DNA from: a virus
Reading direction: 5' to 3' (one strand)
Length of the DNA stretch: 64,000 nt
IMG/VR virus record: IMGVR_UViG_3300045581_000334
Span: 1 to 64,000 of that record
Below the pieces are notes generated by a model. It worked only from the letters and a program-made list of their open reading frames with translations, was not told the DNA's origin and ran no database searches. The translations under genes were made by a program, and so were the position numbers. Below, one piece after another: positions 6,227 through 58,934 of the stretch. Within the stretch, counting starts at the first letter, position 1, and each line of letters opens with the position of its first letter.

Positions 6227-6360
6227 GACTCCAGCTCAGAATTAAGAAATTCAATACTTTCTCCAGTATCCTCTTCTGTTCCTACTGAATTAATCCTTCC
6301 CTGTAAGTCTTTTATTCTGCTATCAATTATATACTTCTTATATTCTTTTTCTATATCCAT
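6199..6360 (-). CDS. 53-residue hypothetical helical protein
   Basis: A short gene from ATG at 6360 to TAA at 6199. It begins MDIEKEYKKYIIDSRIKDLQ and continues as a charged helical protein ending in ARETML-like composition (actual end IAREML). The start lies ten bases inside the 3' end of the large tail protein gene (an overlap of 6351-6360), which is typical phage gene coupling. No family is recognised. The charged helical character matches the two small genes that follow. Confidence 0.6.
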   Translation of the reverse strand: MDIEKEYKKYIIDSRIKDLQGRINSVGTEEDTGESIEFLNSELESWTIAREML

Positions 6361-36459: not shown

Positions 36460-36460
36460 A

Positions 36461-36475: not shown

Positions 36476-36499
36476 ACTTTCAATGCCTCAAGTCCAGCT

Positions 36500-38286: not shown

Positions 38287-38292
38287 GATTTT

Positions 38293-38298
38293 ATTATA
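38293..38298 (-). promoter_or_regulatory. TATAAT box six bases before ATG (LamG gene)
   Basis: The minus strand reads TGATATAAT-AAAATC-ATG. It is an extended -10 (TGA) at the leaderless distance. No convincing -35 and no Shine-Dalgarno. Confidence 0.5.
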
Positions 38299-38865
38299 TC
38301 AGGCAAACAGTTCTGGGTTTAGTTTAGTAGGAAGCTCTGTTGTGCCTCTAACAAATACAGTGGTGAAATATCTTATATCGTCACTTAGGACGGGAAGTGA
38401 GCCGTGAACTATATGTCCTCCATGTATAAATAGCGAATTAGCTTTTGGCTTTATGGTAATTCCTAGATCAGGGTAGTCCAATTCTCCACCCTCATAGTCA
38501 TCATTAAAATATAAACACAATCCATACCCAATATAATAGTCTATATCAGTTCTCCACTGATCAGCATGATGCTGTATAAAATCTCCCTTTTTATACCTTT
38601 GTAAAATCATACCAGTAGGATAATACGAATAAGATTCAAATAAGGATTCCATTTTTTTATTTGCTCTTGAGAATACATTTTCTTCTTCAAAGACTATCTG
38701 TTTGCCAAACCAGAAATCGGGAATTTGATTTTTAACTCTCATCTCTTCATTATTCCAGTCTTCTTCAGAAAAACTGTTTATAATTTTTTTTACTTCTTCA
38801 AATTCTGAGTCTGTTAGGAAATTTTCTACCTCATAAACATCATCGTATATCTTGTTTATCTTCAT
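38299..38865 (-). CDS. 2OG-Fe(II) dioxygenase, prolyl hydroxylase-like (1 of 7)
   Basis: A 188-residue double-stranded beta-helix enzyme. Iron ligands are the HxD pair in IQHHADQW and the distal His in HIVHG. The co-substrate-binding basic residue is Arg in DDIRYF. The family motif YFNDDYEGGE lies between. It is the shortest of the seven and close to a minimal prolyl 4-hydroxylase catalytic domain. Such enzymes use O2 and 2-oxoglutarate to hydroxylate protein prolines or other substrates. It is the last gene of the island, next to the SDR gene. Confidence 0.85.
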   Translation of the reverse strand: MKINKIYDDVYEVENFLTDSEFEEVKKIINSFSEEDWNNEEMRVKNQIPDFWFGKQIVFEEENVFSRANKKMESLFESYSYYPTGMILQRYKKGDFIQHHADQWRTDIDYYIGYGLCLYFNDDYEGGELDYPDLGITIKPKANSLFIHGGHIVHGSLPVLSDDIRYFTTVFVRGTTELPTKLNPELFA

Positions 38866-38871
38866 AAATTC

Positions 38872-39540
38872 CTAATTATATTTATTATTATTTATGTGAC
38901 TTATCTCTATATGGTTTATATTTACATGACTAGGTAAAGATCCTACCCATCTAATTGTTTCAGCCATATCTGCAGCAGTTAAAGCGTTATCCTTTTTCTC
39001 TAACTGTGTGTCTATTGTTCCTGGGCACACTTCCGTAACCTTAATTCCATATGCTGGGAATTCCATTCTCATAGTGTCTATTAATCCCATTTCTCCACGT
39101 TTAGCATTTGAATAATTTCCGCTTCCACGGTATGGTACTTTTCCACACAAGGAAGTGACAAAAACAATAGTCGGAGATTCAGAATTTTTCATTGCTGGTA
39201 CAAACAATTGAGACAAATACATTGGTCCAGAAACATTGATATCATACGCTCTTCTAAAGTTTTCCATAGTTTCGTTTATTAGATATGTTGGCCCTGCTCC
39301 ACCGCCAGCATTATTTACTAATAGATCTAAAGTTATATCTTTATATTTATCGTAGAATGCCTTGATGGCTTTTTCATCAGTAATGTCTAAGCTGTATGTC
39401 TCTATGTTGTCAGAAGCAATCTCTGCCAACTTAGATAAATTACGTGACACAGCAATAACTTTGTACCCATTTTGGGATAAAACTTTTACTGTTTCGTAAC
39501 CTACGCCCTTGCTAGCTCCAGTAACTATGGCGGTTTTCAT
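38872..39540 (-). CDS. short-chain dehydrogenase/reductase
   Basis: A 222-residue classical SDR. It has the nucleotide-binding TGASKGVG motif at the N-terminus, NNAG in the middle, the catalytic Ser in VFVTSL and the YxxxK pair in YSNAK, all in the expected order. The Arg in AVSRN after the second strand suggests NADP(H) preference. The substrate is not predictable. It is enclosed by dioxygenase genes with spacings of two to six bases, so it is likely translated with them and may act on the same pathway. Confidence 0.9.
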   Translation of the reverse strand: MKTAIVTGASKGVGYETVKVLSQNGYKVIAVSRNLSKLAEIASDNIETYSLDITDEKAIKAFYDKYKDITLDLLVNNAGGGAGPTYLINETMENFRRAYDINVSGPMYLSQLFVPAMKNSESPTIVFVTSLCGKVPYRGSGNYSNAKRGEMGLIDTMRMEFPAYGIKVTEVCPGTIDTQLEKKDNALTAADMAETIRWVGSLPSHVNINHIEISHINNNKYN

Positions 39541-39542
39541 AT

Positions 39543-40241
39543 TTACATCGTTGGATTATTTACTGGCTCCATGGTTCTATACCAATGAAGTGGTACCATA
39601 TACTTAAATCCGCTCTTAACTAAGTGTGCGGTGTGATGATATGGTGGAGATGATGGGAATATAATAACGCTCCCTGCCTCTGGCTTAATGGCTATAGTAA
39701 CTCTGTTTCCATCTTTTGCTACGGCAAAATCTTCTTCTGGCTTGCCCTGTATGATTGGTGCGTCTGGAGATTCAATGGTAAATGAAAGTTCTCCACCCTC
39801 GTAATCATCGTTTAAATAAAACACAAGTGAGTACTTTAATCTAGTGTCTCCTTCTTGCTGATCAAAGTGTGCTCCCATGTAGGTTCCTGGGCTATACTTC
39901 TTAATATCAAATAATGGGAAATTGATGGGAGTTTCGTTGTCTCCGTGAGCTTCCGCATAATCTTTACAAACGGCATAGAAGGCATCCATGATGGTGTTAT
40001 AAATGTATCCAGCCTTATTGTCTGTTGTTTTAATTACTCTCTCTTCATCAGATGGGTTTACAGTTTTTTGAGCTCCGTAAAGATACATCTCTCCACTACA
40101 GGCTGTCCACTCATTCCATTTAGTAACTGAATTACCCCATTCCTCATTTTCTGTGGAATCAATCATCTCCACAAACTTTTTTGGATCTGGTATTACGTTC
40201 TTGTAATAGTAAACATTTTCTTCTAATATTTCTTTTTCCAT
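39543..40241 (-). CDS. 2OG-Fe(II) dioxygenase (2 of 7)
   Basis: A 232-residue protein with HFD in MGAHFDQQEG as the HxD iron pair. It has the motif YLNDDYEGGELSF, and a distal His in PPYHHTAHLVKSG followed by a Lys where other members have Arg. The middle loop between these motifs is longer than in its neighbours. It probably belongs to the prolyl 4-hydroxylase-like group. It has a ribosome binding site (AGGAG) and sits directly before the SDR gene. The target is unknown. Confidence 0.85.
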   Translation of the reverse strand: MEKEILEENVYYYKNVIPDPKKFVEMIDSTENEEWGNSVTKWNEWTACSGEMYLYGAQKTVNPSDEERVIKTTDNKAGYIYNTIMDAFYAVCKDYAEAHGDNETPINFPLFDIKKYSPGTYMGAHFDQQEGDTRLKYSLVFYLNDDYEGGELSFTIESPDAPIIQGKPEEDFAVAKDGNRVTIAIKPEAGSVIIFPSSPPYHHTAHLVKSGFKYMVPLHWYRTMEPVNNPTM

Positions 40242-40242
40242 G

Positions 40243-40986
40243 TCAATCTCCTATTTTATATTTCTTACCATTTGGATCAATCTTATAACCTTCTTTAAGA
40301 AGATCTTGCCACTCCGCCTTTTCTACTGCTTGCTGATCTCTAATCTTCTGCATTTCTTCTGCCCAAGCATCTCTGACTTCTTGTGGATAATCTGATTCTT
40401 CTCTATCGTCCCAGAAAGACCCTAGAGTGTATCTAACTCCTGAAGTTATCATACTTACTTCATGCATGTTATTAAATCCGCCATCAAATGCAGCTAACAA
40501 TCCAGTCTTAGGCTGTATGCTAATATCTTGTGATGGAAACTTAAGCATACCACCCTCAAAATTATCATTCAAATATAAGAAGGCTGCGTATCTACTTCTT
40601 GCAAATGGCCCAGTGTTTCCTTTTTCATCTGTGTTGTCTGAATGTATTCTTGCATATGCTCCAGGCTCCCACTTTTGAGTATGGTATCCAATTTGAACTA
40701 CCTTTTTAGGATCTAGTCCATGAACTGAAGCAACAGCATCTATAATTCCAGATCTAATTTGAGAAAATATGTCTGACTCCAAGCCAAACTCTTCTATCTC
40801 TGGATCTCCATCTTGTGGCAAAACCGATGAGTAAGATTCATAAAAAGAAATTGGAGTCCATGATAGTTTTTCTGTTTCAGCCTGCTTGTCTAAAACTTTT
40901 ATTAAAGCAGCGCACTGCTCTTCAGTTAAAAAGTTTTCATAAAGGACTATGTCCTTAGTCAATCTATTTTGATTATTTAAATTCAT
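40243..40986 (-). CDS. 2OG-Fe(II) dioxygenase (3 of 7)
   Basis: A 247-residue protein. The iron-binding HxD is in ARIHSDNTDE, the core motif is YLNDNFEGGML, the distal His is in FNNMHEVSMI and the 2-oxoglutarate Arg in SGVRYTLG. A charged C-terminal extension of about 45 residues, rich in Lys and Glu, distinguishes it from the others. It overlaps the upstream dioxygenase gene by four bases, which suggests coupled translation. Confidence 0.85.
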   Translation of the reverse strand: MNLNNQNRLTKDIVLYENFLTEEQCAALIKVLDKQAETEKLSWTPISFYESYSSVLPQDGDPEIEEFGLESDIFSQIRSGIIDAVASVHGLDPKKVVQIGYHTQKWEPGAYARIHSDNTDEKGNTGPFARSRYAAFLYLNDNFEGGMLKFPSQDISIQPKTGLLAAFDGGFNNMHEVSMITSGVRYTLGSFWDDREESDYPQEVRDAWAEEMQKIRDQQAVEKAEWQDLLKEGYKIDPNGKKYKIGD

Positions 40987-41882
40987 TTTATCCTCACTAA
41001 TCCATCTAGGTTTTTCTTTTGTACCTTTTCCTGGTACTCTGCCATTATTTCACCTTGCATTGATATCCACTTATCTCTGCCATACTTCTCTTCATTCTCA
41101 AACCATTCTTTATCGCCAAGGTCATACTTTTGCCAATACATTCTAGTAAAAAGTTTTTCTCCGTTTAAGTTATTTGTAACTCCGTGTAGGTATACCTTTC
41201 CATCTTCTGTAAGAATTTCTGGGTGCCCTGAAGGAAAAACTAAAAAATCTCCAGCTTTAGGCTTGTAAGAAAATATTTTATTATTAATAATAAATTCAAC
41301 TTCTCCGCCATCATAGTCGTCGTTTAGGTATGTAGTAGTTGTAATTGCAAATTTATATCCTGGGGTCTTAATAGGCTCTCTAATAAAGTCAGAATGATAA
41401 TTCATTGCCAATGGGTGTCCTTTTCCTGCATCATCAAAATACTTGCATAGGCTTGGACCAGTCCATCTCCAGGTGCTTATCTCAGAAACTACAGATTGCT
41501 CAGAGTTATAAGTTTCTGAGTACAAGGAGTTTACTGGATTAGAGACATGAGTAGGATCAACATCTAGGTTAAACCTATTAATAAAATCATTATTTACTTT
41601 ATGAAAACCTTTAACTAGCTCACAAATAAAATATTTTTGATCTCTTCCCTTATCGGTTGTAGGCTCTTCATGATCCCAGGCAAACTTCATTTCTCTATCG
41701 GATTTGTTAAAATTTATTCCGAACTTTTCTACTTTTTCTCCAAATTCGTACCATGGTTTCCAGTCTTCAAATATTCCTGTTTCTGAACTTCCAATATCTT
41801 TAGCTATCCTATACATCTTGTCAACATCTTCTAATACGCCGTTATAAACTATAATATATGGATATATTTCTTCGCTATACAT
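40983..41882 (-). CDS. 2OG-Fe(II) dioxygenase (4 of 7)
   Basis: A protein of 299 residues, the largest of the group. HSD in MNYHSDFIRE gives the HxD pair, YLNDDYDGGEVEF the core motif and LHGVTN the distal His. The first 170 residues form an extra N-terminal part with a Trp-rich segment. I choose the ATG at 41882, seven bases after a GGAG site, instead of the one four codons earlier, because that site overlaps the earlier ATG. The C-terminus has a Lys/Trp-rich helical tail. Confidence 0.85.
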   Translation of the reverse strand: MYSEEIYPYIIVYNGVLEDVDKMYRIAKDIGSSETGIFEDWKPWYEFGEKVEKFGINFNKSDREMKFAWDHEEPTTDKGRDQKYFICELVKGFHKVNNDFINRFNLDVDPTHVSNPVNSLYSETYNSEQSVVSEISTWRWTGPSLCKYFDDAGKGHPLAMNYHSDFIREPIKTPGYKFAITTTTYLNDDYDGGEVEFIINNKIFSYKPKAGDFLVFPSGHPEILTEDGKVYLHGVTNNLNGEKLFTRMYWQKYDLGDKEWFENEEKYGRDKWISMQGEIMAEYQEKVQKKNLDGLVRIK

Positions 41883-42603
41883 TCTTATCTCCATCTATTA
41901 AAACCCTATAGTACTTCTTATCAGGTTCTGGCTTAACTTCTCCAGTATGTTCTAATATAGTCCAAAAGAATGGAACTGTATATCTTATGCTACCTTTTAT
42001 TTCTGTTACACCGTGAATATAATTCATATCTCCAGGGAAAAAGTAGGCAGCACCTCTTTTAGGCTTAAATTGAATTCCTTGATTAGGGAAATATAACTCT
42101 CCGCCTTCATAATCATCATTTAAATAAAACAAGCTAGCTAAATCATACCATGGAAAATCATTGGACAATCCAGCATCTGGCCCTTCATGTAATTCTTTGT
42201 CTGCGTGTGGTCTTTGGAATTGACCAGGTAGCCACCTAACGATTGTCTGCCCAGTTGGCTGAGCTTTTACCTTATAAAAATCTTCTATGATTGGCTGTAG
42301 TCTTTGAAAGAGTCCAACTATAACTGGAACAATGTTTGGATCATTTTTGTTTAAAGATGGAGCACTACAAACTCTGTCTTTCCAATAACTTGAATCATAT
42401 ATAACTGTTCCATTTTCATTTACATGATCTTCTGTGTAGTCCCAAATTGTAATCTTTTTAGCAGCTGACTCAAGGAAGTTTATCTCATCTTCAGTCATAA
42501 AATTTTCTAGTTCAACAATCATATCCTTGCTGTACCCAAAAAATCCAGATGGGGTTATTGATTTCGGTGCGTGTAAGTGTATGTCTTTGTTTACAATTTC
42601 CAT
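41875..42603 (-). CDS. 2OG-Fe(II) dioxygenase (5 of 7)
   Basis: A 242-residue protein. The HxD pair is HAD in QRPHADKELH, the core motif YLNDDYEGGELYF, the distal His in YIHGVTEIKG and the Arg in SIRYTVPF. This full set of iron and 2-oxoglutarate ligands makes it the most canonical of the seven. It starts five bases after TATAAT and has no ribosome binding site, so a leaderless transcript starting here is possible. It ends inside the next dioxygenase gene. Confidence 0.87.
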   Translation of the reverse strand: MEIVNKDIHLHAPKSITPSGFFGYSKDMIVELENFMTEDEINFLESAAKKITIWDYTEDHVNENGTVIYDSSYWKDRVCSAPSLNKNDPNIVPVIVGLFQRLQPIIEDFYKVKAQPTGQTIVRWLPGQFQRPHADKELHEGPDAGLSNDFPWYDLASLFYLNDDYEGGELYFPNQGIQFKPKRGAAYFFPGDMNYIHGVTEIKGSIRYTVPFFWTILEHTGEVKPEPDKKYYRVLIDGDKNV

Positions 42604-42608
42604 ACTTA

Positions 42609-42614
42609 ATTATA
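42609..42614 (-). promoter_or_regulatory. TATAAT box five bases before ATG
   Basis: The minus strand reads TGGTATAAT-TAAGT-ATG, and the box includes the stop codon of the upstream gene. Extended -10 (TGG), poor -35. It matches the leaderless layout seen elsewhere in this window. Confidence 0.4.
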
Positions 42615-43329
42615 CCATTCCATTAGAAGCAGTATTATCATTTACAGATAACCTCAAAGTCTTAGTTTCATGAGAACCTAAAGAATTACCGTTCTCATCT
42701 ACAGCGTCTCTATACCAATCCGTCCAGTTTCCAGAAGAATTTATAACCTGTGCGGCTTCTCCATAAGACATATTAGCATTGTGTCTAGACCTGTCATCAT
42801 CTCTATACTGAACGATCTCTATAACTGAATTGTTTAAGTTACTCAAAGATATTGGAATTATTGTAGCTATTGGAGTACCAGCCTTGATTACAGTTTCTAC
42901 ATTTGCCTTTTTAGCTTTGATTGCTAAAGGCAATGGATTATCATAAAAAGATGTGCTCATTAAATTAGACATTGTTTCAAAATCTTCATTAAAATAATTT
43001 ACTGGATTTATTGTCCATATACTAACATCTGGGTCTGTCCTAAAAACCATACCTGTATTTAGACTTATTGTAGACTGTCCTCGTCCAGAGTAAGCATCAG
43101 CAGGTTTAGTTATCTTTACATGCTGGTCTGTCTGATCATTTATTCCATCCCAAGTAAAAATTATATCTTCTGTGCAGGATAAGTTCCATCCTACTACGTT
43201 GGCCTGTGTTACTGGAAAACATCTGTAGGCATGCTTTTCTGAGGTAACATCCATCCATTCTCTTTTAATAGACATTGGATCTATTTTAAACTTACACCCT
43301 TGCATTTTTTCTACCGATATATTAATCAT
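42610..43329 (-). CDS. uncharacterised family member (relative of the proteins at 44012 and 49816), copy 1
   Basis: A 239-residue protein lying between dioxygenase genes. It shares with the proteins at 44012 and 49816 the layout of a beta-rich core, the signature (V/I)KAGTP followed by an IIP or IIPI motif, and a preceding NPLPLAIKA-type strand. The family resembles what I remember as DUF6065, but I could not check. No catalytic residues stand out. Its repeated association with dioxygenases and glycan-type enzymes suggests a role in the same pathway. It differs most from the other two copies in its middle part. Confidence 0.6.
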   Translation of the reverse strand: MINISVEKMQGCKFKIDPMSIKREWMDVTSEKHAYRCFPVTQANVVGWNLSCTEDIIFTWDGINDQTDQHVKITKPADAYSGRGQSTISLNTGMVFRTDPDVSIWTINPVNYFNEDFETMSNLMSTSFYDNPLPLAIKAKKANVETVIKAGTPIATIIPISLSNLNNSVIEIVQYRDDDRSRHNANMSYGEAAQVINSSGNWTDWYRDAVDENGNSLGSHETKTLRLSVNDNTASNGMV

Positions 43330-44012
43330 TATTCATTATCCCACTTTGGATCATACATATCTGGCGTATGATATTTTTTGCTATAATCAAGCATTGTAAC
43401 TATTGAATGTTTAGTTCCACTAGTTACTGGCATAGCTCTATGAGGATACATAAAATTAGAAGGAAATATATACAGGTCTCCAGCTTTTGGCTTTATGTTT
43501 AAACCCTGAAGTCTAAAAAATAGCTCTCCGCCTTCGTAATCATCGTTTGGGTATGCTACAAGTGACACAGTACAGTTATAAGAATATCCATGATCATGAT
43601 GTTCTTGAAAGTGTTGGCCTGGTCCATATTTAATAAAATTAAAAGCTTCCCAATATTTTAATGGCATAATGTTAAACATTCTACGATAATCTTCAACTGC
43701 AGGATTTTGGGCATCATACACATCTTGCCACAAAGACTGTAGCTTTAATGATTCTTCGCTTTTATCTGCCTCTATGTCTGTTTTTTTAAACTTAAAATCT
43801 ACACAATCTCTATAGTCTGGCATAAGTTGTTGGTATCCAACATAAGCTGGATTCCAGTGGTATCTTTTGCCATCTGGAGATAATTGTCCCCATGGGGCAA
43901 CCTCTCCCAATACGCTGTCAAGTCTGTTTATAACATCAATTTCTGGTTTTATAACGTCTCTATAAACAACAATTCCTGTAGCCACTTCTTCTTTGCTAGA
44001 CCATGTTTGCAT
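43329..44012 (-). CDS. 2OG-Fe(II) dioxygenase (6 of 7)
   Basis: A 227-residue protein. The iron pair is in QEHHDHGYSYN (HxD as HHD), the core motif is YPNDDYEGGELFF, and the distal His in YPHRAMPVTSG. A Lys in TKHSIV replaces Arg. It resembles copy 7 (44773) in the sequences PKAGDLYIFPSNFMYPH and PKVGDIAIFPSNYIYEH, so the two are likely recent paralogues. It overlaps neighbours at both ends by one base. Confidence 0.85.
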   Translation of the reverse strand: MQTWSSKEEVATGIVVYRDVIKPEIDVINRLDSVLGEVAPWGQLSPDGKRYHWNPAYVGYQQLMPDYRDCVDFKFKKTDIEADKSEESLKLQSLWQDVYDAQNPAVEDYRRMFNIMPLKYWEAFNFIKYGPGQHFQEHHDHGYSYNCTVSLVAYPNDDYEGGELFFRLQGLNIKPKAGDLYIFPSNFMYPHRAMPVTSGTKHSIVTMLDYSKKYHTPDMYDPKWDNE

Positions 44013-44773
44013 TACTTGTACTCTCTTCTTGACCAGACATTCTTTATGTATACCCCACCGTCGGGAACCCTATACTTTTTCATGTTGTCATTCATTTTAG
44101 CATAAATGTCATTTTGAGACAATAGCTCTATTTCACTTTCCCAATCTTCTCTTTTAAATGGGATAATTTGCATATATGGGGTTCCAGCTTTAATTGTGCC
44201 TTCATATCCATCAACAACAAAAAATGGGAATGTTCCAGACAAATGAACTTTATCGTTATCTACAATCCCAGTAGTATTTAAAAATGGAAGATCGAATCTA
44301 TTCATTGGTGTCATATATATACAGCTGTATCCTTCTGGAACCTCTAGACCCCAATCTGGCTGCCAAGCAAAGTGATACTTGTAGTAACCCTTTGGGTGCT
44401 CAAACTGTGGCATGGGTGGCCTTCTTGATACGAAGTCTCTGCAGTTTAATTCTGAAACCTTGACATCAATATTTCCCTGACTGTCTTTAAAAAATGTTAT
44501 GTCGCATGGTGTTTTTAAAACGTAACCTGTTGAGAACCCATCCATAATTGCTGGGCAAGCTTTCCAAGTTGGGATCTTGCCATAATCATCCTTAGTTCCT
44601 TCTTTTGGAAATGGACAAACCGCTTTAGGAGCTTTAAAATAATCTCCGTTTGGCATCTTAGCAAATCTGTCTGCCTCCTTGTACCACTTTGGCATCACGG
44701 AGTGTGTTGTGGCAGGAGTTGACTTGCTATCTTTTTTTAACCAGGGCCTGAATGACCTAAAAATTATTTTCAT
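44012..44773 (-). CDS. uncharacterised family member, copy 2
   Basis: A 253-residue protein. It shares with copy 3 (49816) the order KACPAIMDGFSTGYVLKTP, PMNRFDLPFLNTTGIVD, FPFFVVDGYEGTIKAGTPYM and QIIPFKREDW. That is strong evidence of common descent. A W/P-rich N-terminal segment starts with a basic FRSFRPWLKK. It probably folds as a beta-barrel. It lies between dioxygenases 6 and 7, and the TAATG junction with gene 7 indicates translational coupling. The function is not known to me. Confidence 0.65.
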   Translation of the reverse strand: MKIIFRSFRPWLKKDSKSTPATTHSVMPKWYKEADRFAKMPNGDYFKAPKAVCPFPKEGTKDDYGKIPTWKACPAIMDGFSTGYVLKTPCDITFFKDSQGNIDVKVSELNCRDFVSRRPPMPQFEHPKGYYKYHFAWQPDWGLEVPEGYSCIYMTPMNRFDLPFLNTTGIVDNDKVHLSGTFPFFVVDGYEGTIKAGTPYMQIIPFKREDWESEIELLSQNDIYAKMNDNMKKYRVPDGGVYIKNVWSRREYK

Positions 44774-45483
44774 TACTTATGACCGATTTCATTAATGTCT
44801 GTCATAATAACAACACAATACTTAGTTCCCTCTTTCATTGGCAATGACGCATGTTCATAAATATAGTTTGATGGGAATATTGCAATATCTCCAACTTTTG
44901 GGGTATGAATATGATTATCTAATCTTGGAAATTGTATCTCTCCACCCTCGTAGTCATCGTTAATATAAATTACTGCAGATACAGTACAATTATATGCTGG
45001 CCCATGGTCGGCATGAATTCTAAAATGCTTACCTTCTCCTTCATACTTTACAAAGTTAAATGCTTCATAATATACAACATTTATCCCCCAGTATCTTGCG
45101 TAATCATCAATACAAAATTTTAACTTCTCATAAATTTCATTATGTAAATCAATTAATGGAGCATTAAATTCATTTTTAGGGCCAAGGTTTTCTGGCTTAA
45201 ATTTAAAATCTACGCAGTCCCTTGCCTTTTTAATCGGAACTACAGAATTTGTTACTTGAGCCTCTGACCATCTATATCTGGCCCCATTAGTTAAGTTGTC
45301 TTCAAGTATCTTTATATATCTTTCTGCGTCCTCTTTTGAAAAAGTATTATGATAAATGTTTAGACCTAATCCTGGATTAGTAGTTGTAATAGTACTGTTA
45401 ACTCTTCTTTCTGGCAGCCTATTAGAAGCTGTCTCAGATCTATCTTTATTAAACCAGTGGTCTTGTGGGTCTTGATAATTCAT
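44773..45483 (-). CDS. 2OG-Fe(II) dioxygenase (7 of 7)
   Basis: A 236-residue protein with HAD in FRIHADHGPAYN, core motif YINDDYEGGEIQF, distal His in YEHASLPMKEG and a Lys in TKYCVV. The ATG at 45483 is preferred over a GTG eight codons upstream because it follows AAAGGTAGG. It is the first gene of the dioxygenase cluster in transcription order. The upstream gap contains an AT-only hairpin and a TGATACAAT box that may start this operon. Confidence 0.87.
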   Translation of the reverse strand: MNYQDPQDHWFNKDRSETASNRLPERRVNSTITTTNPGLGLNIYHNTFSKEDAERYIKILEDNLTNGARYRWSEAQVTNSVVPIKKARDCVDFKFKPENLGPKNEFNAPLIDLHNEIYEKLKFCIDDYARYWGINVVYYEAFNFVKYEGEGKHFRIHADHGPAYNCTVSAVIYINDDYEGGEIQFPRLDNHIHTPKVGDIAIFPSNYIYEHASLPMKEGTKYCVVIMTDINEIGHK

Positions 45484-45507
45484 TGTTTTTCCTACCTTTA
45501 CAAACAC

Positions 45508-45513
45508 ATTGTA
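45508..45513 (-). promoter_or_regulatory. extended -10 box for the dioxygenase operon
   Basis: The minus strand reads TGATACAAT just upstream of the start at 45483 (leader about 18 bases with a ribosome binding site). The -35 is poor. It partly overlaps an AT-rich hairpin at 45515-45535. Confidence 0.4.
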
Positions 45514-45514
45514 T

Positions 45515-45535
45515 CATAATAAATATTTTATTATG
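45515..45535 (-). terminator. AT-only hairpin between GMP reductase-like and dioxygenase genes
   Basis: A 9-base perfect stem (CATAATAAA with TTTATTATG) with a 3-base loop in the gap between the two genes. It has only two G:C pairs in total, so it would be a weak terminator; it could be an operator over the promoter that follows. Confidence 0.35.
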
Positions 45536-45540
45536 TTTAA

Positions 45541-46587
45541 TCAGGAAACTCTTGTTCCTGATTCTTTTACTGACTGACTAGAAACTATTATAAACTTACA
45601 ATTCTCACGAAAATCTTTTAGGTTGTGAGATCCGCAATACGACATTCCGCTTGTCAAGTTATTAATCATTTGATTAATTGTATCCTCAACACTGCCTCTT
45701 TTTTCTACTTTGCCATGAACACCCTCTACATGCAAACGACTTGCATCTTCTGGCTTTTTATCCATTAAATCTAGTTGTAAGCTAAGAGATGCCGTTCCTC
45801 TAAATTCATTACTTGCACATTCTTCATGACCCGCAAACATGGATCCCATCATTACTGCACTTGCGCCTGCGGCTAAAGCTTTTACAATGTCGCCAGTTTG
45901 CTTTACTGCGCCATCTGAAATCAATCCGTTTATTTCATTTGATTTAATATTGTTATAAACATCCATAACTGACGCAAGAACTGGAACTCCAAATCCAGTA
46001 GCAAATCTGGTATTGCATGCTGCTCCGCCACCGATACCTACTCGTACTGAATCTGCTCCAGAATTCATTAAATCATCATATGCTTCATAGGAAGAAACAT
46101 TTCCAATCATTATATGAGTGTCATTTGGAACAGATGATCTAAGTTGTTTTACAGCATTTATACAAATATCTGTGTGGGCAAATGCCGTATCTATTAGTAA
46201 TGTTTTTATGTTATGAGATAAAATATTATTAATAAAATCAGAATTGTTTGCCTCTTCAATATTTACAGAGAATCCTAATTTATTGTTTGATGGCAACAAC
46301 CTAGACAATTCTTTTAGCTGACTAAATCTATTTGCAGAATTCTGCCACCTATTTATAAACCCCATCCCGCCTCTATTAATTATTTTATAAATCATTTCAT
46401 TGGTACTTATAAAATCCATTGGTGCCATTAAAAATGGAATATCTAAATTAATATGCGCTGCTGGGTTATTTGGATTTCCTAATTTTGTTTTAACATCAAC
46501 ACTAGACCTACTAACAACACTTGATTTTTTAGGAACAAGTAAGACGTCGTCAAAACAAACGCTGTTAGTAGCAGTGTCTAGATGCAT
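45541..46587 (-). CDS. GMP reductase/IMP dehydrogenase-family enzyme without CBS domains
   Basis: A 348-residue (beta/alpha)8 enzyme. The catalytic Cys loop is GIGGGAACNTRFATGFGVP, followed by LISDGAVKQTGDIVKALAAG and the segment AGHEE. AGHEE is typical of GMP reductase, whereas IMP dehydrogenase usually has AGTEE. The length also fits GMP reductase, and no CBS domain interrupts the barrel. GMP reductase would return GMP to IMP and could rebalance purines for A-rich DNA synthesis. The N-terminus (FDDVLLVPKKSSV) is the usual family start. It shares an operon with a Dps-like gene. Confidence 0.82.
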   Translation of the reverse strand: MHLDTATNSVCFDDVLLVPKKSSVVSRSSVDVKTKLGNPNNPAAHINLDIPFLMAPMDFISTNEMIYKIINRGGMGFINRWQNSANRFSQLKELSRLLPSNNKLGFSVNIEEANNSDFINNILSHNIKTLLIDTAFAHTDICINAVKQLRSSVPNDTHIMIGNVSSYEAYDDLMNSGADSVRVGIGGGAACNTRFATGFGVPVLASVMDVYNNIKSNEINGLISDGAVKQTGDIVKALAAGASAVMMGSMFAGHEECASNEFRGTASLSLQLDLMDKKPEDASRLHVEGVHGKVEKRGSVEDTINQMINNLTSGMSYCGSHNLKDFRENCKFIIVSSQSVKESGTRVS

Positions 46588-46588
46588 C

Positions 46589-47059
46589 TTAGTCTTTTAA
46601 AGATTTCCAAGGGTTTGGAGGTAGTTTTAAACTTGATTCCAGAAACCAATTCCATTCTTGATGCTTAGATAACCTTTGAGATAAATGTTGAACAAGTCCG
46701 TGCTCACCAAATCTGATTGCGGTTGATATTAATATTTTTATTTCTTCAATCATTTTTTTATTTATTGGAACTAAATGAACAGCCATTTCGACTCCACAAT
46801 AAGTGTCTGGCTTTACATTTCCCAAGGTCTGGTATTCGGCATACTGTTCTAAAGTATATAATGCTTCTATGTTTAACTTCCTTAACCAATTGGAAGTTTC
46901 ATCTACTGCCTTTTCTGAATCTTCATAAATATCTCTATATACAATTCTAGATTGTCTCATCAAAACCGACTCTGTGTTCCAAACAAATCCCCGAACAAGA
47001 TTTGTGAACACAATAGAGTTAGCCTGAAATGTTTTTAATGGCTTGCTTAATTCATCCAC
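46589..47059 (-). CDS. Dps/ferritin-like protein with a degenerate ferroxidase site
   Basis: A 156-residue helical protein starting at GTG. The order of motifs follows Dps: FVWNTES where Dps has HWN, then YRDIYEDSEKAVDETSNWLR, LYTLEQYAEY, and a final helix LSKHQEWNWFLESSL. The first ferroxidase His is replaced by Val, so iron oxidation may be lost while the dodecamer or DNA binding remains. Phages do carry Dps-like proteins. It may protect DNA or bind metal. It is encoded just before the GMP reductase-like gene and below a promoter with an embedded palindrome. Confidence 0.6.
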   Translation of the reverse strand: MDELSKPLKTFQANSIVFTNLVRGFVWNTESVLMRQSRIVYRDIYEDSEKAVDETSNWLRKLNIEALYTLEQYAEYQTLGNVKPDTYCGVEMAVHLVPINKKMIEEIKILISTAIRFGEHGLVQHLSQRLSKHQEWNWFLESSLKLPPNPWKSLKD

Positions 47060-47092
47060 TATTAATTACCCTTCTAATAATAAGAGGTTATA

Positions 47093-47121
47093 ATAATAAC
47101 ACATTAAAAAAAATGTGTCAA
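47093..47121 (-). promoter_or_regulatory. promoter with palindrome filling the spacer (Dps/GMP reductase operon)
   Basis: The minus strand shows TTGACA (47116-47121), a 17-base spacer and TATTAT (47093-47098). The spacer plus part of the -35 is a perfect inverted repeat, ACACATT-N6-AATGTGT (47099-47118). A repressor dimer bound there would block RNA polymerase, so it looks like an operator. It could instead form a hairpin. Confidence 0.55.
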
Positions 47122-47123
47122 TA

Positions 47124-47666
47124 CTAGATGTTTAAAAACTGACTAATTTTATTTATTAAATCTGGATCGTCGTAATCAATTTTAATAAAATTAGGATTGC
47201 TTGACAGATTACTGTTAATGCTGCTAACGTGAGCATCATATATTGTAGAAAGCTCTTCATTCGTTAGATCAAGCATATTTGTTTTGCCTGTTTGCTGATA
47301 AAAGTTGCAGAAAAATTCTTCAAATAAATAATCAGGCACATGGCTAACATAAAGGTCTTTTACATAATTCATTTTTTCAAGCCAAGCTTCTTTGCTTATA
47401 TCAATAAAAATAAACTTAGTATTATTATCTTTTTCAAAAGCATACTGGTGTATAAAAGAAGATGGGAATTCTATAAAAGCATCAACATTTGCGTATTTAG
47501 AATCAAAGTATTCTTTTGCACCATTGATATTTTCTTCATATTTACCTAAAGAGGTTTGATAACCTATTCCTTTAAAAAAATATTCATAGCTTATATTCTT
47601 AAGAGAAAAAAGAGATGCAATCTCTTCTCCTCTGGACATGTTTAATGACACTACGCAAATTTTCAT
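47124..47666 (-). CDS. sulfotransferase-like (P-loop related) protein
   Basis: A 180-residue protein. The opening MKICVVSLNMSRGEEIASLF could be a modified PAPS-binding loop. The middle (FIEFPSSFIHQYAF, KFIFIDISKEAWLEKM) and end (DAHVSSINSNL, FIKIDYDDPDLINKISQFL) follow the order of small sulfotransferases that sulfate sugars or proteins. The standard P-loop Lys/Thr are not clearly present, so it may use another co-substrate. The start is six bases after a consensus TATAAT. It is the first gene after the small Cys-rich peptide. Confidence 0.45.
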   Translation of the reverse strand: MKICVVSLNMSRGEEIASLFSLKNISYEYFFKGIGYQTSLGKYEENINGAKEYFDSKYANVDAFIEFPSSFIHQYAFEKDNNTKFIFIDISKEAWLEKMNYVKDLYVSHVPDYLFEEFFCNFYQQTGKTNMLDLTNEELSTIYDAHVSSINSNLSSNPNFIKIDYDDPDLINKISQFLNI

Positions 47667-47764
47667 GTATCTATTATATCATTTTCATTATTATTGTCAA
47701 CTGAATCTGTGGGTCTATCATTACCTAATCCGACGTGATCAGCGCATCCACACATCCAACACAT
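47663..47764 (-). CDS. 33-residue Cys-rich peptide (MCWMCGC...)
   Basis: The frame from ATG at 47764 to TGA at 47663 encodes 33 residues beginning MCWMCGCADHVG, followed by an Asn/Asp-rich tail. Its ATG follows the stop of the PLP-enzyme gene directly, and its TGA overlaps the next ATG (ATGA). This tight coupling at both ends supports translation. The CxxCxC plus nearby His could bind a metal. With a radical SAM/SPASM gene two genes away, it is also a candidate precursor peptide for modification, which is speculative. Confidence 0.6.
   Translation of the reverse strand: MCWMCGCADHVGLGNDRPTDSVDNNNENDIIDT
47673..47700 (-). promoter_or_regulatory. consensus promoter for a leaderless mRNA
   Basis: The minus strand reads TTGACA (47695-47700), a 16-base spacer, TATAAT (47673-47678) preceded by TGA, then six bases and ATG of the sulfotransferase-like gene. 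Both hexamers are perfect. The start codon lies where transcription should begin. Confidence 0.75.
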
Positions 47765-48823
47765 TTATCCAACCACCTTTTCTATGGAATATTTTATATC
47801 ATTCCATATATCTTCCATGTCTTCACACCCTACAGACAGTCTAATCAGGTTGTGGGGGACCAGGGGACTCTCTAGTGGCCAACGCCTTCTTCTTTCCCAC
47901 AAAGACTCTACGCTTCCAAGGCTTGTAGCATATCCTATTAGTTTTGAAGAATAACATATCTCATCAACTTCGATTTCTGTTGCATCAATTTCAAAAGATA
48001 CGACTCCTCCAAATCCAGGATAATATACTTTGTTAACTTTAGGATGGTTTTGTAGTCTCCAAACCAATCCTCTTGCGTTATTCTCAGACTTTTTAAATCT
48101 TAAAGGGAAAGTTCTTATGCCTCTCAAAGAAAGCCAGGATTCAAATGGTGCTGCTATAGTTCCGTTTATTTTTCTTTCAAACTCTATCTTCTCAAAAAGG
48201 TCATTGTTATTTGTAGATATAGATCCAATTAATACGTCGCTATGACCCGATAAATATTTTGTAACGGAATGTAATGAAATATCTGCACCCAGTTTAAGTG
48301 GCTGCTGATTAATTGGTGTCGCAAATGTATTATCCACTACAACAATAATATTTGATTGTTTAGCGCAATTTATTAAAGTTTCTAATTCTGCAATATCTAA
48401 CATTGGGTTTGTAGGAGATTCTATCCACAACATATATGCACCTGCAAGATTTTCTATAACTTCTTCTGTATTTGCTATATCTACAAATCTTGCAATTATT
48501 TTATTTTCATCATTTAGTTTTTTTAATGTGGCGTTTACTCCAGCATAACCTTGGTTTGATGCAACCACAATATTTCCAACTGGTACCGTTGATAAAATAG
48601 AACTCACTGCAGACATCCCAGAGCTAAAAGCTAATGTCTTTCCGCCCTCTAAAGATGATATTGCATTTTCTAAATCTTTACAGTTTTCATTTCCATATCT
48701 TGCATAGCCAATATCTCCTCCAGCATAATATGTAGAGTTAAGAGATATTGGAGTATTGAATGGACCATCTGGACTTCTATCTGGTCTTCCAGAATGTATA
48801 GATCTAGTATTAAATCCTGTCAT
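47765..48823 (-). CDS. PLP-dependent cystathionine gamma-synthase/lyase-family enzyme
   Basis: A 352-residue fold-type I PLP enzyme. The internal aldimine Lys is in HSVTKYLSGHSDV. The cofactor pocket has SGMSAVSSIL and VVVDNTFATP, and the substrate loop has YARYGNENCKDLE. The last 40 residues carry SLGSVESLWERRRRWPLESP, typical of the C-terminal region of the family. It is slightly shorter than usual (380-400). It could make cystathionine or a sulfur amino acid precursor, or act in tailoring. A phage-encoded member is unusual. It starts two bases after the radical SAM gene. Confidence 0.88.
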   Translation of the reverse strand: MTGFNTRSIHSGRPDRSPDGPFNTPISLNSTYYAGGDIGYARYGNENCKDLENAISSLEGGKTLAFSSGMSAVSSILSTVPVGNIVVASNQGYAGVNATLKKLNDENKIIARFVDIANTEEVIENLAGAYMLWIESPTNPMLDIAELETLINCAKQSNIIVVVDNTFATPINQQPLKLGADISLHSVTKYLSGHSDVLIGSISTNNNDLFEKIEFERKINGTIAAPFESWLSLRGIRTFPLRFKKSENNARGLVWRLQNHPKVNKVYYPGFGGVVSFEIDATEIEVDEICYSSKLIGYATSLGSVESLWERRRRWPLESPLVPHNLIRLSVGCEDMEDIWNDIKYSIEKVVG

Positions 48824-48824
48824 T

Positions 48825-49823
48825 TTATCCCCATATCGCTGCCGAGCATTTTGTACACATGTCTGAATACGACTTAAGTATCATATCAGATCTTTCTTTA
48901 CTATTCCAAATATCTTTTAGGCTAGTAGAATTTACGTTTCCATATACAGTTTCAAAATCATAGTCTGCACAACAAATAAACAGATCTCCGTTTGGATTTA
49001 TGTGTACCCACTCATTTGTCCTGCTTCTTATTTCTATTCCGCCATTACACCCTATAACCTTTTTATTATCAGACTTTAAATATTTATCAATGGCAAACCT
49101 TTGCGTAAGTATTCCATATTTTTCTAAGTGTGCAGCTCTGTCATATAAATGATGAGAGGTGCTAATATCTAAACCTGGAAACATTATTTTAAACTGTTCT
49201 GCATCTCTTGCCAACTCTCCGTTATCATCATCTAGGTCTACTTTTGGCGCATTGCTTAAAAGGTCTAACCATCCACCATTTTTTGTTAGAGATGAATTAT
49301 TTACCCCATTTACCATAAGGTGCAAATAAGGATTAAAAAGACCACTATTCTTTTTTTCATTTAAATATTTAACATTAGACACAACTTTATCAAAAAGTTT
49401 TATGTTCATATTAACGTATCTAGACCATCTTTCTGGTTCGGAAGCTGGTATGTTTAACAAGATTCCGTTAATAACGTCTTGATACTCTATAAGTAAATCA
49501 ACTTTTTTCGGAGTTAACGCTACCCCGTTTGTTAAAATATTTGTTTTAAATCCATACTTTTTATAAACCTGCAGCATTTCTTCAAGGTGCTTATAAAGTA
49601 AAACTTCATTATAATTTGCAGAGTATGCTAAGTTTAAATTTGGATCTACAAAGTCTCCCTTGCCTTCTGTCAACTGTCTCAATATATTATCTAATTCAGA
49701 TATCTCCATGTCTCTTATTGCTGATTTAGGGTTTCCCGCATAAGAAACTGGGCAGAACCAACAGCCAGCATTACAAAGTCCATTGACATCAATTTGAACT
49801 GCTTTAATCATATAATTATTCAT
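48825..49823 (-). CDS. radical SAM/SPASM domain protein
   Basis: A 332-residue protein. The CxxxCxxC cluster is in GLCNAGCWFCPVSY near the N-terminus. The C-terminus has a Cys-rich SPASM-like region (CNGGIEIRSR, LFICCADYDFETVYGN, CTKCSAA) that would bind auxiliary Fe-S clusters. Such enzymes modify peptides, proteins or sugars by radical chemistry. The ATG at 49823 (MNNYMIKAVQIDV) is chosen because the codons before it belong to the upstream gene. The eight-base overlap implies coupled translation with the protein at 49816. Confidence 0.88.
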   Translation of the reverse strand: MNNYMIKAVQIDVNGLCNAGCWFCPVSYAGNPKSAIRDMEISELDNILRQLTEGKGDFVDPNLNLAYSANYNEVLLYKHLEEMLQVYKKYGFKTNILTNGVALTPKKVDLLIEYQDVINGILLNIPASEPERWSRYVNMNIKLFDKVVSNVKYLNEKKNSGLFNPYLHLMVNGVNNSSLTKNGGWLDLLSNAPKVDLDDDNGELARDAEQFKIMFPGLDISTSHHLYDRAAHLEKYGILTQRFAIDKYLKSDNKKVIGCNGGIEIRSRTNEWVHINPNGDLFICCADYDFETVYGNVNSTSLKDIWNSKERSDMILKSYSDMCTKCSAAIWG

Positions 49824-50421
49824 ACTGTTTTCTATCCCAATAATATTTTTTATAAAAATTATTTTCTTTATATTTATTATTTCTAGTATCACATTCTTCT
49901 AAAAGATTTTCATTTAATTCCATTGTCCATTGTTCTCTCATAAAAGGAATTATTTGAAATATAGGAGTTCCAGCTTTAATTATTCCTTCGAACCCCTCTT
50001 TTATAAAAAATGGAAGATTTCCTTTTGGCATTATAGAGTCTGAATCTACAATAGCCGACAAGGTTGTAAATGGCAAATCGTATCTGTTTATTGGATGACA
50101 AATTAATATACTATAATCTTTAGGAGTTTTTATAATGTACGGATTTTTCCATAAAAATTGTCTGCTATCATGATTAAATGGTATTGGCATATTTCCAATA
50201 CTGCTACTATCACGCAATCCAATAACATCTAAATCATTGTTTAAATCTATGTCTTGTTTTAAAACCATAGAGTATCCAGAAATAAATCCATCTATAAAAG
50301 GCATGCAATGTTTTAGCATTAATGAACTTGGTTCATCTTTATACCATTGTGGTATTATTTTTTTTGCAGGTACAAGACTCATCTTTGTCTCATTTTCTTG
50401 ACAGTAAAATTCAAGCTGCAT
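49816..50421 (-). CDS. uncharacterised family member, copy 3
   Basis: A 201-residue protein, the shortest copy. It shares with copy 2 HCMPFIDGFISGYSMVLKQD, HPINRYDLPFTTLSAIVD, FIKEGFEGIIKAGTPIFQ and IIPFMREQW. It precedes a radical SAM gene and follows a methyltransferase gene, so it sits in a sugar or peptide tailoring context. The start lies six bases after TATAAT with a TGGACA -35. No enzymatic motif can be recognised. A substrate-binding beta-barrel is a possible guess only. Confidence 0.65.
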   Translation of the reverse strand: MQLEFYCQENETKMSLVPAKKIIPQWYKDEPSSLMLKHCMPFIDGFISGYSMVLKQDIDLNNDLDVIGLRDSSSIGNMPIPFNHDSRQFLWKNPYIIKTPKDYSILICHPINRYDLPFTTLSAIVDSDSIMPKGNLPFFIKEGFEGIIKAGTPIFQIIPFMREQWTMELNENLLEECDTRNNKYKENNFYKKYYWDRKQYE

Positions 50422-50427
50422 GTTAAG

Positions 50428-50456
50428 ATTATATCTTATAGACTAATGCTTGTCCA
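50428..50456 (-). promoter_or_regulatory. promoter for a leaderless mRNA (49816 gene)
   Basis: The minus strand shows TGGACA (50451-50456), a 17-base spacer and TATAAT (50428-50433), then six bases to ATG at 50421. Five of six -35 bases match consensus. The -35 overlaps the end of the methyltransferase coding region. Confidence 0.7.
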
Positions 50457-51052
50457 GTAGGTAATTCTAAAATATTATCTACTCCAAAGAAATCATTCAT
50501 TGCTTTTCGTGCTCCTGGGGTTTTATCTGATCCATAATCGTCACATATCAATACCCCGCCTTTAATTAGTCTTGGCCAAAAATATTCTATAGAATTTTTG
50601 GTGGGGTCATATAAATCAACATCTATATTAACATAGGAATATTGTTCATCATTAAGTTTATCAAATACCTCTGGGATCCAGCCTTTATATAAATCTACAT
50701 TATCAAAGTTTTTTAATATTTTCTCTGCAAATGATATACTTATAGATAATTTTTTAGACTTAAAATAATCGCTATCATATTCACCAGGTTCTGAGACACC
50801 CTCAAAAGAATCTACCCCTATGAATTTGTTTTTACAAAGATCCGCTACAAAAAACATAGACATTCCAGCATAAACACCGCACTCAGCAAAATTTCCTTTG
50901 TCTTTTTGCTGAGTGGCTAGTTGTCTTAATATGTATAATCTGGCATATAAAGAATTATTAATTTCATTATTTATTCCTGCTAGAATGTTAAATTGATTAA
51001 ACAATGAAACAAACTTAGCATCTTGTTGCCAAGATGAGATATATGAATCCAC
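50429..51052 (-). CDS. TylF-type SAM-dependent O-methyltransferase
   Basis: A 207-residue methyltransferase. The SAM-binding loop is AECGVYAGMSMFF, followed by IGVDSFEGVSEPG, DVDLYDPTKNSIEYFWPRL and GGVLICDDYG. The DDYG and PGARKAMNDF motifs are typical of the TylF/MycF family, which methylate sugar hydroxyls. It starts at GTG (51052), directly after the FFPP-Hint gene. It may methylate a sugar on phage fibres or on host surface glycans. The substrate is unknown. Confidence 0.9.
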   Translation of the reverse strand: MDSYISSWQQDAKFVSLFNQFNILAGINNEINNSLYARLYILRQLATQQKDKGNFAECGVYAGMSMFFVADLCKNKFIGVDSFEGVSEPGEYDSDYFKSKKLSISISFAEKILKNFDNVDLYKGWIPEVFDKLNDEQYSYVNIDVDLYDPTKNSIEYFWPRLIKGGVLICDDYGSDKTPGARKAMNDFFGVDNILELPTGQALVYKI

Positions 51053-51053
51053 G

Positions 51054-52532
51054 TTACGAAATTACTAAATAATTTCCAACTAGGAACCAAGCATGTGGGG
51101 CTGTTCTAATTTCATAAACATCTCCCTCATCAAGTATTTCAATCTTTTCAACTGGAACATATGAAACCTTTCCAGAGTTGCTATCAATATTTACAAGAAT
51201 ATCTCCTACAACAATATCTTTAGGTTCTTTAGTACCAATTCCAACTTCATTTTTAATAAAGATTGGCTGATATGGTGAGAATAAATTTTCACCATCATTT
51301 AATTTAATTAACTGCTTTTGGCTTAACTCGCTCTTAACAACTTCTGTTTCAATAAATTCAACATTATCAGATATTGACACGTTGTTTAGTGTATCAGAAT
51401 TTGTTAAATAACTTGGGTCAACTGTAAGCAAAATATCTCCTACCTTAATGTCTTCAGCATTAACATATCCATTGCTGGTAAGGATTTTAGATTTTGCATA
51501 GACACACTTATATCCCTTAGAGAAAGTTGGGAAGTATGGTGGGAAGAATGGGAAGAATGGGAAGTACGGGAAGAAAGGTGGGAAGAATGGGAAGAATGGG
51601 AAGTACGGGAAGAACGGTGGGAAGAATGGGAAGAATGGGAAGTACGGGAAGAACGGTGGGAAGAATGGGAAGAATGGGAAGTACGGGAAGAACGGTGGGA
51701 AGAATGGGAAGAATGGGAAGAATGGGAAGAACGGTGGGAAGAATGGGAAGAATGGGAAGAACGGGAAGAACGGTGGGAAGAATGGTGGGAAGAACGGGAA
51801 GAACGGTGGGAAGAATGGGAAGAACGGTGGGAAGAATGGTGGGAAGAACGGTGGGAAGAACGGGAAAAACGGTGGGAAGAACGGTGGGAAGAACGGTGGG
51901 AAGAACGGTGGAAAGAACGGTGGGAAGAACGGAGCTAAAGTTGTTATGCTGCTAGTTGTTGCTCCAGCAGAAGGCCCATTAGCGTTTGTTGCGGTAACAG
52001 TATAAGTTTGCGAAGTTCCTGCGGTATCTGAAATTACTACTGATGTTGCTGAGGCTGACAAGTCTCCTGAAGAAGATCCATCGCTACCAGTAACATTGTG
52101 TTTAGTTATTGCTTTTCCTCCGTTTGCCCCAATAGTCCAGCTAATTGTATTTTGATTAATTCCAGCTGTAGCAGTAACTGATTGTGGAGACTGAGGAACT
52201 GTAGTAATTGGAACAGATGAACTTGTTGTAGGAGAAGAAGATCCAGCATTATTTGATGCAACTACGGTGAATGTATAACTACCTGCAGATAAGCCAGTAA
52301 ATGTATAAGATGTATTAGTGGTTGTTTGGCTTGATGATGCAGGAGTTGTAGTAATTGTATAAAGAGTTGCTGGTGGAGATGCTGCTGGCAAAGACCAGCT
52401 TAAAGAAGCGGCTCCATTTCCGTATGGTCTACCTGTTCCTACGTCGGAAGCAGATAATCCAGTTACAGCATTTGGCTCTAAGAAATTATCTTGAGCTGAA
52501 GACTTTCTTCCTCTTCTTTTACTTGATGCCAT
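51054..52532 (-). CDS. Fn3-FFPP-Hint surface protein
   Basis: A 492-residue protein. After a basic N-terminus (SKRRGRKSS) come two Fn3-like modules (about 20-110 and 112-196). Residues about 201-333 are an FFPP/FFPYFP repeat tract. The C-terminus (343-492) is Hint-like: Cys343 begins CVYAKSKILTSNGYV, then EDIKVGDILLTVDP, and the last strand HAWFLVGNYLVIS ends the protein. The Cys needed for an N-S acyl shift is present. The block B His is replaced in SPYQPIFI and no final His-Asn is present. Hint domains can cleave or attach upstream protein, so the FFPP part might be processed. Activity is uncertain. Confidence 0.75.
   Translation of the reverse strand: MASSKRRGRKSSAQDNFLEPNAVTGLSASDVGTGRPYGNGAASLSWSLPAASPPATLYTITTTPASSSQTTTNTSYTFTGLSAGSYTFTVVASNNAGSSSPTTSSSVPITTVPQSPQSVTATAGINQNTISWTIGANGGKAITKHNVTGSDGSSSGDLSASATSVVISDTAGTSQTYTVTATNANGPSAGATTSSITTLAPFFPPFFPPFFPPFFPPFFPPFFPFFPPFFPPFFPPFFPFFPPFFPFFPPFFPPFFPFFPFFPFFPPFFPFFPFFPFFPPFFPYFPFFPFFPPFFPYFPFFPFFPPFFPYFPFFPFFPPFFPYFPFFPFFPPYFPTFSKGYKCVYAKSKILTSNGYVNAEDIKVGDILLTVDPSYLTNSDTLNNVSISDNVEFIETEVVKSELSQKQLIKLNDGENLFSPYQPIFIKNEVGIGTKEPKDIVVGDILVNIDSNSGKVSYVPVEKIEILDEGDVYEIRTAPHAWFLVGNYLVIS
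51529..51932 (-). repeat. FFPP-coding repeat, tract 2, with 39-base higher-order units
   Basis: Besides 12- and 9-base units, four near-perfect 39-base units (13 residues, FFPYFPFFPFFPP on the coding strand) occur at the C-terminal end, near 51538-51693. The rest is FFPP and FFP. The plus strand is nearly all purine. The copy number probably varies between isolates. Confidence 0.9.
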
Positions 52533-58905: not shown

Positions 58906-58934
58906 ATTATATCATTCTGTAATATGTCTAGCAA
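58906..58934 (-). promoter_or_regulatory. promoter for a leaderless mRNA (58899 gene)
   Basis: The minus strand shows TTGCTA (58929-58934), a 17-base spacer and TATAAT (58906-58911) preceded by TGA, then six bases to ATG at 58899. Confidence 0.6.

Follow-up and report, generated by a model that had tools for sequence, protein, structure and literature searches.

Why would a phage encode a series of diverged 2-oxoglutarate- and Fe(II)-dependent (2OG-Fe(II)) dioxygenases side by side, and on what would they act? The question is raised by the virus record IMGVR_UViG_3300045581_000334 of IMG/VR (76,694 bases), of which positions 1-64,000 were analysed; this whole stretch of 64,000 nucleotides is called the window below. 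It contains seven intact open reading frames (ORFs) of the 2OG-Fe(II) dioxygenase family PF13640, all on the minus strand within the block 38299-45507. We suggest that the answer is to be sought in a nearby gene, whose product carries a long tract of phenylalanine and proline.

The dioxygenase set and its chemistry

The genes on which the argument rests are the following (Lys or Arg type refers to the last basic residue of the active-site motif; P4H, prolyl 4-hydroxylase).

51054..52532, minus strand: main tract gene; encodes an fn3 domain, a Phe/Pro tract of 131 residues (FFPP/FFP/YFP) and a Hint-like domain at the C-terminus; proposed substrate
44773..45507, minus strand: dioxygenase A; PF13640, Lys type; best PDB sequence match Bacillus anthracis P4H
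43329..44012, minus strand: dioxygenase B; PF13640, Lys type; most conserved member; AlphaFold confidence (pLDDT) 93.9
41875..42603, minus strand: dioxygenase C; PF13640, Arg type
40983..41894, minus strand: dioxygenase D; PF13640, Lys type; no PDB sequence match
40243..40986, minus strand: dioxygenase E; PF13640, Arg type; best PDB matches prolyl 3-hydroxylase 1 and P4H
39543..40241, minus strand: dioxygenase F; PF13640, Lys type; no PDB sequence match
38299..38865, minus strand: dioxygenase G; PF13640, Arg type

Each of the copies A-G exceeds the PF13640 cut-off (E values 4.5e-14 to 2.7e-6, all above 27 bits), and a profile search of the whole record revealed an eighth copy, H, beyond the window (68355-69008 of the record). 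Gene A starts with GTG; an in-frame ATG yields the end at 45483 given in a preliminary description of this DNA. In an alignment of all eight copies the H-x-D pair, the distal His and, within the YxNDD core, the N and the D after it are invariant. The GG of the core is intact in A-G and is replaced by VDG in H, while the iron motif of copy F reads HFD, within GAHFDQQ. ORFs, profile and alignment therefore agree with the preliminary description, which had listed seven genes with HxD, distal His and YxNDD-GG core. A strict regular expression for HxD, His and basic residue was matched by 652 of 800 relatives, and the failures shown were truncated sequences or near-misses of the expression. The Tet_JBP profile, with its cut-off of 34.9 bits, was reached by no copy; only copy G matched it, at 16.7 bits.

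The copies had also been called divergent, and they are. Pairwise identity of the other copies to copy 1 is 23-29% in the eight-copy alignment, and in a maximum-likelihood tree of 71 sequences each of the eight copies groups separately with orthologs from other phages. The copies are thus old and separately maintained; the possibility that they are duplicates of a single enzyme was considered, and tree and identities reveal long divergence and no recent duplicates. The last basic residue does vary as had been claimed (A, B, D and F have Lys; C, E, G and H have Arg). In this superfamily it binds the 2-oxoglutarate carboxylate, so the difference alone is no argument for different substrates, for which it had been used.

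Sets of five to eleven copies are widespread among aquatic phages, on hundreds of viral contigs. A copy-B pattern matched at least 599 stretches of IMG/VR, 598 of them confirmed relatives, and the best 80 of these at least 599 are 81-100% identical. Twenty relative records searched whole contain 6-10 PF13640 genes each, and B- and C-type orthologs reach phages without a detectable relative of the window capsid. Copy number as such was rejected as a novelty, for which it had been taken, since Synechococcus phage S-SCSM1 has 24 2OG-Fe(II) oxygenase genes, whose role its authors see in reprogramming the host; 1-5 such genes are common in T4-like cyanophages (PMC9602691).

Sequence (for most copies) and fold (for copy B) point to prolyl hydroxylases. 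The best solved relatives by sequence are P4Hs for A, B, C, G and H, and prolyl 3-hydroxylase 1 followed by P4H for E, with E values from 5e-5 (B) to a marginal 0.02 (G), the matches of C, G and H being weak; for A and B the lysyl hydroxylase LH3 comes next. When the AlphaFold model of copy B was used for a fold search, nearly all of the top 50 PDB matches were prolyl hydroxylases (TM score about 0.5-0.64). Nearest to it are the Pseudomonas putida P4H bound to EF-Tu, PHD2, an algal P4H with and without (Ser-Pro)5 peptide, and vCPH of the virus PBCV-1. From this fold, the model confidence and the conserved residues, copy B would possess the expected metal-site geometry. Bacterial, algal and viral P4Hs (3itq/5hv0 from Bacillus anthracis, 4iw3 from Pseudomonas putida, 2jig/3gze from Chlamydomonas and 5c5t, vCPH) are thus the best matches in both sequence and fold, and the phage copies share with them the PF13640-type double-stranded beta-helix and the order HxD...H...basic residue. 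Unlike them, the phage enzymes come as five to eleven diverged copies beside a Phe-Pro repeat gene and DUF6065 genes, and their putative substrate is not collagen-like.

The Phe-Pro tract gene

The 131-residue tract of 51054-52532 consists solely of Phe, Pro and four Tyr. In a close relative (L012 1182-2726) it measures 156 residues, which means that the repeat expands and contracts. The C-terminal ~150 residues, after the tract, form a Hint/intein-like domain, which might serve to cleave the tract protein or to attach it. In the Hint domain of a relative (L586), Cys, the EHP motif and the C-terminal HN are kept, and Intein_splicing matches at 6.5e-6, below the cut-off.

The genes at 34538-52532 form one packed late gene block, which runs from the tract gene (52532) to the portal gene (34538) with intergenic spacing of -77 to +98 bases, includes a capsid structural gene as well, and is presumably a single transcript. 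In 80 copy-B loci the gene order is, with small variations, tail fibre, tract gene, A, DUFa, B, DUFb, C, D, E, (H), F, short-chain dehydrogenase (SDR), (G), where DUFa and DUFb are the DUF6065-like genes listed below. The insert that separates the tract gene from copy A in the window is missing from most relatives, and there the tract gene lies directly upstream of A.

Tracts and dioxygenases occur together. Viral records of at least 20 kb were retrieved by an FFPPFFPPFFP DNA pattern (n=38) and compared with 37 records retrieved by a random 14-mer and 43 retrieved by a collagen-repeat pattern. PF13640 is present in 36 of the 38 tract records (35 above cut-off), in 3/37 records of the random control and in 8/43 of the collagen control. 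Four or more copies were found in 27/38 tract records and in none of the 80 control records, where the maximum is two per record; the FFPP pattern is found in none of the 43 collagen-pattern records. Fisher tests give about 1e-15 (random) and 1e-12 (collagen), P values that overstate the significance, as the records are related and fragmentary, their habitats are unmatched and the scans yield minimum counts. One of the two tract records without PF13640, G025, belongs to the window's own clade and is a fragment that stops short of the cluster.

The tract gene also has a fixed place. Position was evaluated where the sequence continues for 5 kb or more downstream of a tract gene, counting same-strand dioxygenases that start within 2 kb. 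Such a dioxygenase lies downstream of 84 of 96 pooled tract genes, and of 31 of the 41 that were fetched by the tract pattern alone; upstream, none was found for 41 genes of the pooled set (a different 41). The gap is 39-80 bp in G022, G026, G041, G042 and G054 and about 1 kb in G036 (the window capsid was not found there). By BLAST, the tract proteins of G022, G026, G036 and G041 have no match to the window protein outside the repeat. They have a distinct N-terminus (MxxKDxGGKKP-like), and their tracts are built of [FYW]FPP tetrads. Relatives of the window major capsid protein (MCP) were found in 14/38 tract records; scans with Phrogs were uninformative as to the capsid type of the other lineages, and their backbones are known merely as being without a recognisable window MCP. 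Because the link persists with other N-termini and other backbones, the linked feature appears, as judged from sequence, to be the repeat itself.

Further, the repeat type changes together with the enzyme set. Ten relatives from the capsid clade have five or more dioxygenases and no FFPPFFP pattern, and all ten carry an (S/G)FF(G/A/S)PP tract in the corresponding fn3 gene just upstream (in L580, L582, L583 and L585 two small ORFs intervene between tract gene and dioxygenases). A Phe-Phe/Pro-Pro tract is therefore present in 15/15 capsid-clade records with five or more copies, ten with the variant and five with FFPP. The FFxPP members have no clear copy A and five to six cluster ORFs; the clade's members with FFPP have six to seven. 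The near-complete record G152 (85.9 kb) is close to the window in its backbone (capsid 81%, portal 75%, DnaB 83%), and its locus retains the LamG, SDR, DUF6065-like and fn3-Hint genes. Its tract gene (80041-81348) encodes (TPFGF)n with no Pro-Pro, and only two dioxygenases are present at the locus.

Two other proteins of the window carry such tracts, and several genes accompany the dioxygenases in the block:

58928..59692, minus strand: second tract protein, a possible additional substrate; FFPP/SFP tract, Cys-rich end and weak match to PASTA
6351..9230, minus strand: third tract protein; large and fibre-like, 57-residue FFPP tract; possible further substrate
38872..39540, minus strand: SDR, FabG-like, by profile match
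44012..44773, minus strand: DUF6065-like protein a (DUFa); phrog_7084, no Pfam match
42610..43329, minus strand: DUF6065 protein b (DUFb); PF19541 match at 1.8e-28, phrog_7084
49816-50421, minus strand: DUF6065-like protein c, a third relative inside the insert
45541..51052, minus strand: insert separating the tract gene from the dioxygenases; most relatives lack it

The SDR gene and two members of one uncharacterised family, which the preliminary description had placed in the block, were both recovered, the latter as phrog_7084. The predicted model of DUFa weakly resembles the dUTPase/dCTP-deaminase fold, and DUFa has relatives at 25-29% in haloarchaeal tailed viruses. Besides DUF6065-like protein c, the insert encodes an IMPDH-like protein, a weak ferritin-like match, an unassigned ORF, a Cys/Met pyridoxal phosphate (PLP) enzyme, a radical S-adenosylmethionine (SAM)-SPASM protein and a TylF methyltransferase. 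A small Cys-rich protein (CLSCPELIKE...CKQCGCF) is encoded at 58612-58899; its close relatives adjoin the dioxygenase cluster in L590, L593 and L598. Outside the window, the same record encodes a luciferase-like monooxygenase and a sulfotransferase (L008 6006-6848 and 7450-8079).

A proposed hydroxylation module and its alternatives

The preliminary description suggested an ordered set of modifications, to be tested on peptides. Modification of proteins is indeed likely; an order among the reactions is conjectural. The linked Phe-Pro repeat gene, which that description overlooked, offers a more specific and testable substrate. We propose, as the probable explanation but with clear reservations, that the cluster is a virion-protein hydroxylation module: its enzymes would be catalytically active on the Phe-Pro repeat as their substrate, with some specificity for position, the tract protein would be part of the virion, and the phage would benefit. 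The phage would make fn3-type tail-region proteins with long Phe-Phe-Pro-Pro tracts, and the same packed late block would supply the prolyl-hydroxylase-like dioxygenases that hydroxylate tract residues after synthesis, most likely Pro and possibly Phe. Each enzyme may take a different position of the repeat or pass the modified repeat on. The need for more than one enzyme would come from the repeat, which has several sites of different chemistry, the later ones perhaps requiring hydroxylation of earlier ones. More than 100 residues of pure Phe/Pro are expected to be poorly soluble; hydroxyl groups would render the segment soluble and stiff, so that the modified tract might serve as stalk or surface coat, and they could take further modification. 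Only tentatively do we extend this to a position-by-position code, in which each of the five to eleven enzymes modifies one Phe-Phe-(x)-Pro-Pro position in tail-region proteins, and enzyme set and repeat unit co-evolve in a phage counterpart of hydroxyproline-rich stalks.

Several observations, in addition to the inflated P values, weigh against this proposal. In the window the insert puts 5.5 kb between the tract gene and the first dioxygenase, and the two other tract genes are situated away from the cluster. Record G055 bears a tract and is free of dioxygenases, the second such case among the 38 tract records. No solved relatives were found by sequence for D or F. In the pooled set other long ORFs of the same loci often lie near dioxygenases too (184/279 have one within 2 kb downstream); the informative part is therefore the fixed order with the tract gene first, above mere proximity. 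Finally, cyanophages carry many dioxygenases without FFPP tracts, and the family must thus have other roles.

The enzymatic company of the dioxygenases allows a different view. Together with the SDR and DUF6065 proteins, and in the window also the radical SAM, PLP and TylF enzymes, they might act on a small molecule or a glycan, such as a sugar on the virion or the host surface, the tract gene being a mere neighbour from the tail-fibre region. The TylF methyltransferase, radical SAM-SPASM, PLP and SDR genes do share the block, a sulfotransferase lies outside the window, and some dioxygenase genes of S-SCSM1 stand among glycosyltransferase and nucleotide-sugar genes. We nevertheless consider it unlikely: the island 45541-51052 with its sugar-like enzymes is gone from most relatives, where tract gene and dioxygenases stay together, the solved relatives by sequence are peptidyl hydroxylases, and a mere neighbour is not expected to alter its repeat along with the enzyme set.

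Tract and cluster could also hitchhike in one conserved phage cassette without acting on each other. Many records are indeed related, as the 14/38 MCP matches illustrate, and orthologs of B and C occur in every lineage. Such an artefact of lineage is quite improbable given that tract genes that have other N-termini and belong to backbones in which no window MCP was recognised stand in the same 5' position, and that the repeat type shifts with enzyme number inside one capsid clade. For cyanophage 2OG oxygenases the literature proposes auxiliary metabolism (PMC9602691), with the enzymes acting on the host's regulators, its nitrogen status or its level of 2-oxoglutarate. Here there is little room for it: the genes lie inside a packed block running into the portal gene, eight diverged and separately conserved groups exceed the need of a single 2OG drain, and the tie to a structural repeat gene would be left unexplained. 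Hydroxylation of the window's collagen-like fibre protein (59694-61685, GPQGIQ repeats) instead of the Phe-Pro tracts is very hard to credit, even though viral P4Hs acting on collagen-like or Pro-rich peptides are known, as its gene lies away from the cluster and the collagen-pattern controls, with few PF13640 genes, never more than two per record, and no FFPP pattern, led us to reject this protein as the main substrate.

Relation to known systems, host and meaning

Peptidyl hydroxylation of repetitive proteins is known from viruses, in vCPH of PBCV-1 and the mimivirus collagen lysyl hydroxylase L230. The PBCV-1 prolyl hydroxylase is cited in a Baltic Sea survey, where viral P4H genes are abundant and their use is called cryptic (PMC9301287). 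Those are single enzymes in viruses of eukaryotes, whereas the present case would be a multi-enzyme set in tailed phages, with a substrate proposed from gene linkage. In algae and plants, the hydroxyproline-rich glycoproteins (extensins, mastigonemes) have long stiff Pro-rich segments that are hydroxylated by P4Hs (PMC11015965). The phage repeat differs from them in pairing Phe-Phe with Pro-Pro, and its hydroxylation is only predicted.

S-SCSM1 resembles the window phage in having many diverged 2OG oxygenases in one phage, but there the enzymes are scattered, with some small clusters, and an FFPP tract gene was not found. A low-complexity filter on its ORFs (threshold 3.0 bits per 100 residues) picked a single one, ORF19 (L603 23462-31273), annotated as a virion protein, in which an (X-Pro)n run extends over 110 residues. 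Upstream of it, at a distance of 2.4 kb, is a 2OG gene; this is one case and a lead. Another gene of this phage, ORF245 (L601 5117-6382), encodes a short tail fibre protein with an Arg/Pro/Phe-rich repeat and is flanked by four and three 2OG oxygenase genes.

The window backbone comprises capsid, protease, portal, tube, tape-measure, DnaB and ribonucleotide reductase (RNR) genes. Its MCP shares 63% identity with the MCP of Streptomyces phages (Stanwilliamsviridae), and Streptomyces phage Mildred21 has the identical order of RNR, portal, protease, capsid and tape measure. Because of this capsid identity and gene order, an actinobacterial host is likely. When Mildred21 was searched, PF13640 and the FFPP pattern were both absent from it, in keeping with their joint occurrence elsewhere. 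Bacterial genomes scanned for copy B as a clue to the host gave zero matches, and so did a search of isolate phages for the N-terminus of the tract gene. The FFPP pattern has at least 17 matches in bacterial genomes, in scattered genome bins. At least one of the contigs with the pattern, L341 (5.3 kb, from a Chitinophagaceae metagenome-assembled genome), also carries a copy-B relative (69% over the match) and is probably a misbinned phage contig.

In the open-access literature we found no report of phage Phe-Pro tract genes, of their hydroxylation or of a connection with dioxygenases. The apparent novelty lies in the setting, a dioxygenase cluster behind the gene for an fn3 protein with an extended (FFPP)n tract. 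2OG oxygenases abound in phages and are usually filed under auxiliary metabolism; to our knowledge a substrate is known for none of them. The linkage names a concrete candidate, a repetitive tail-region protein encoded next door. If our assumptions are true, then phages build chemically modified proline-rich stalks, and their enzyme sets would provide, ready-made in nature, a range of hydroxylases each suited to its repeat sequence.

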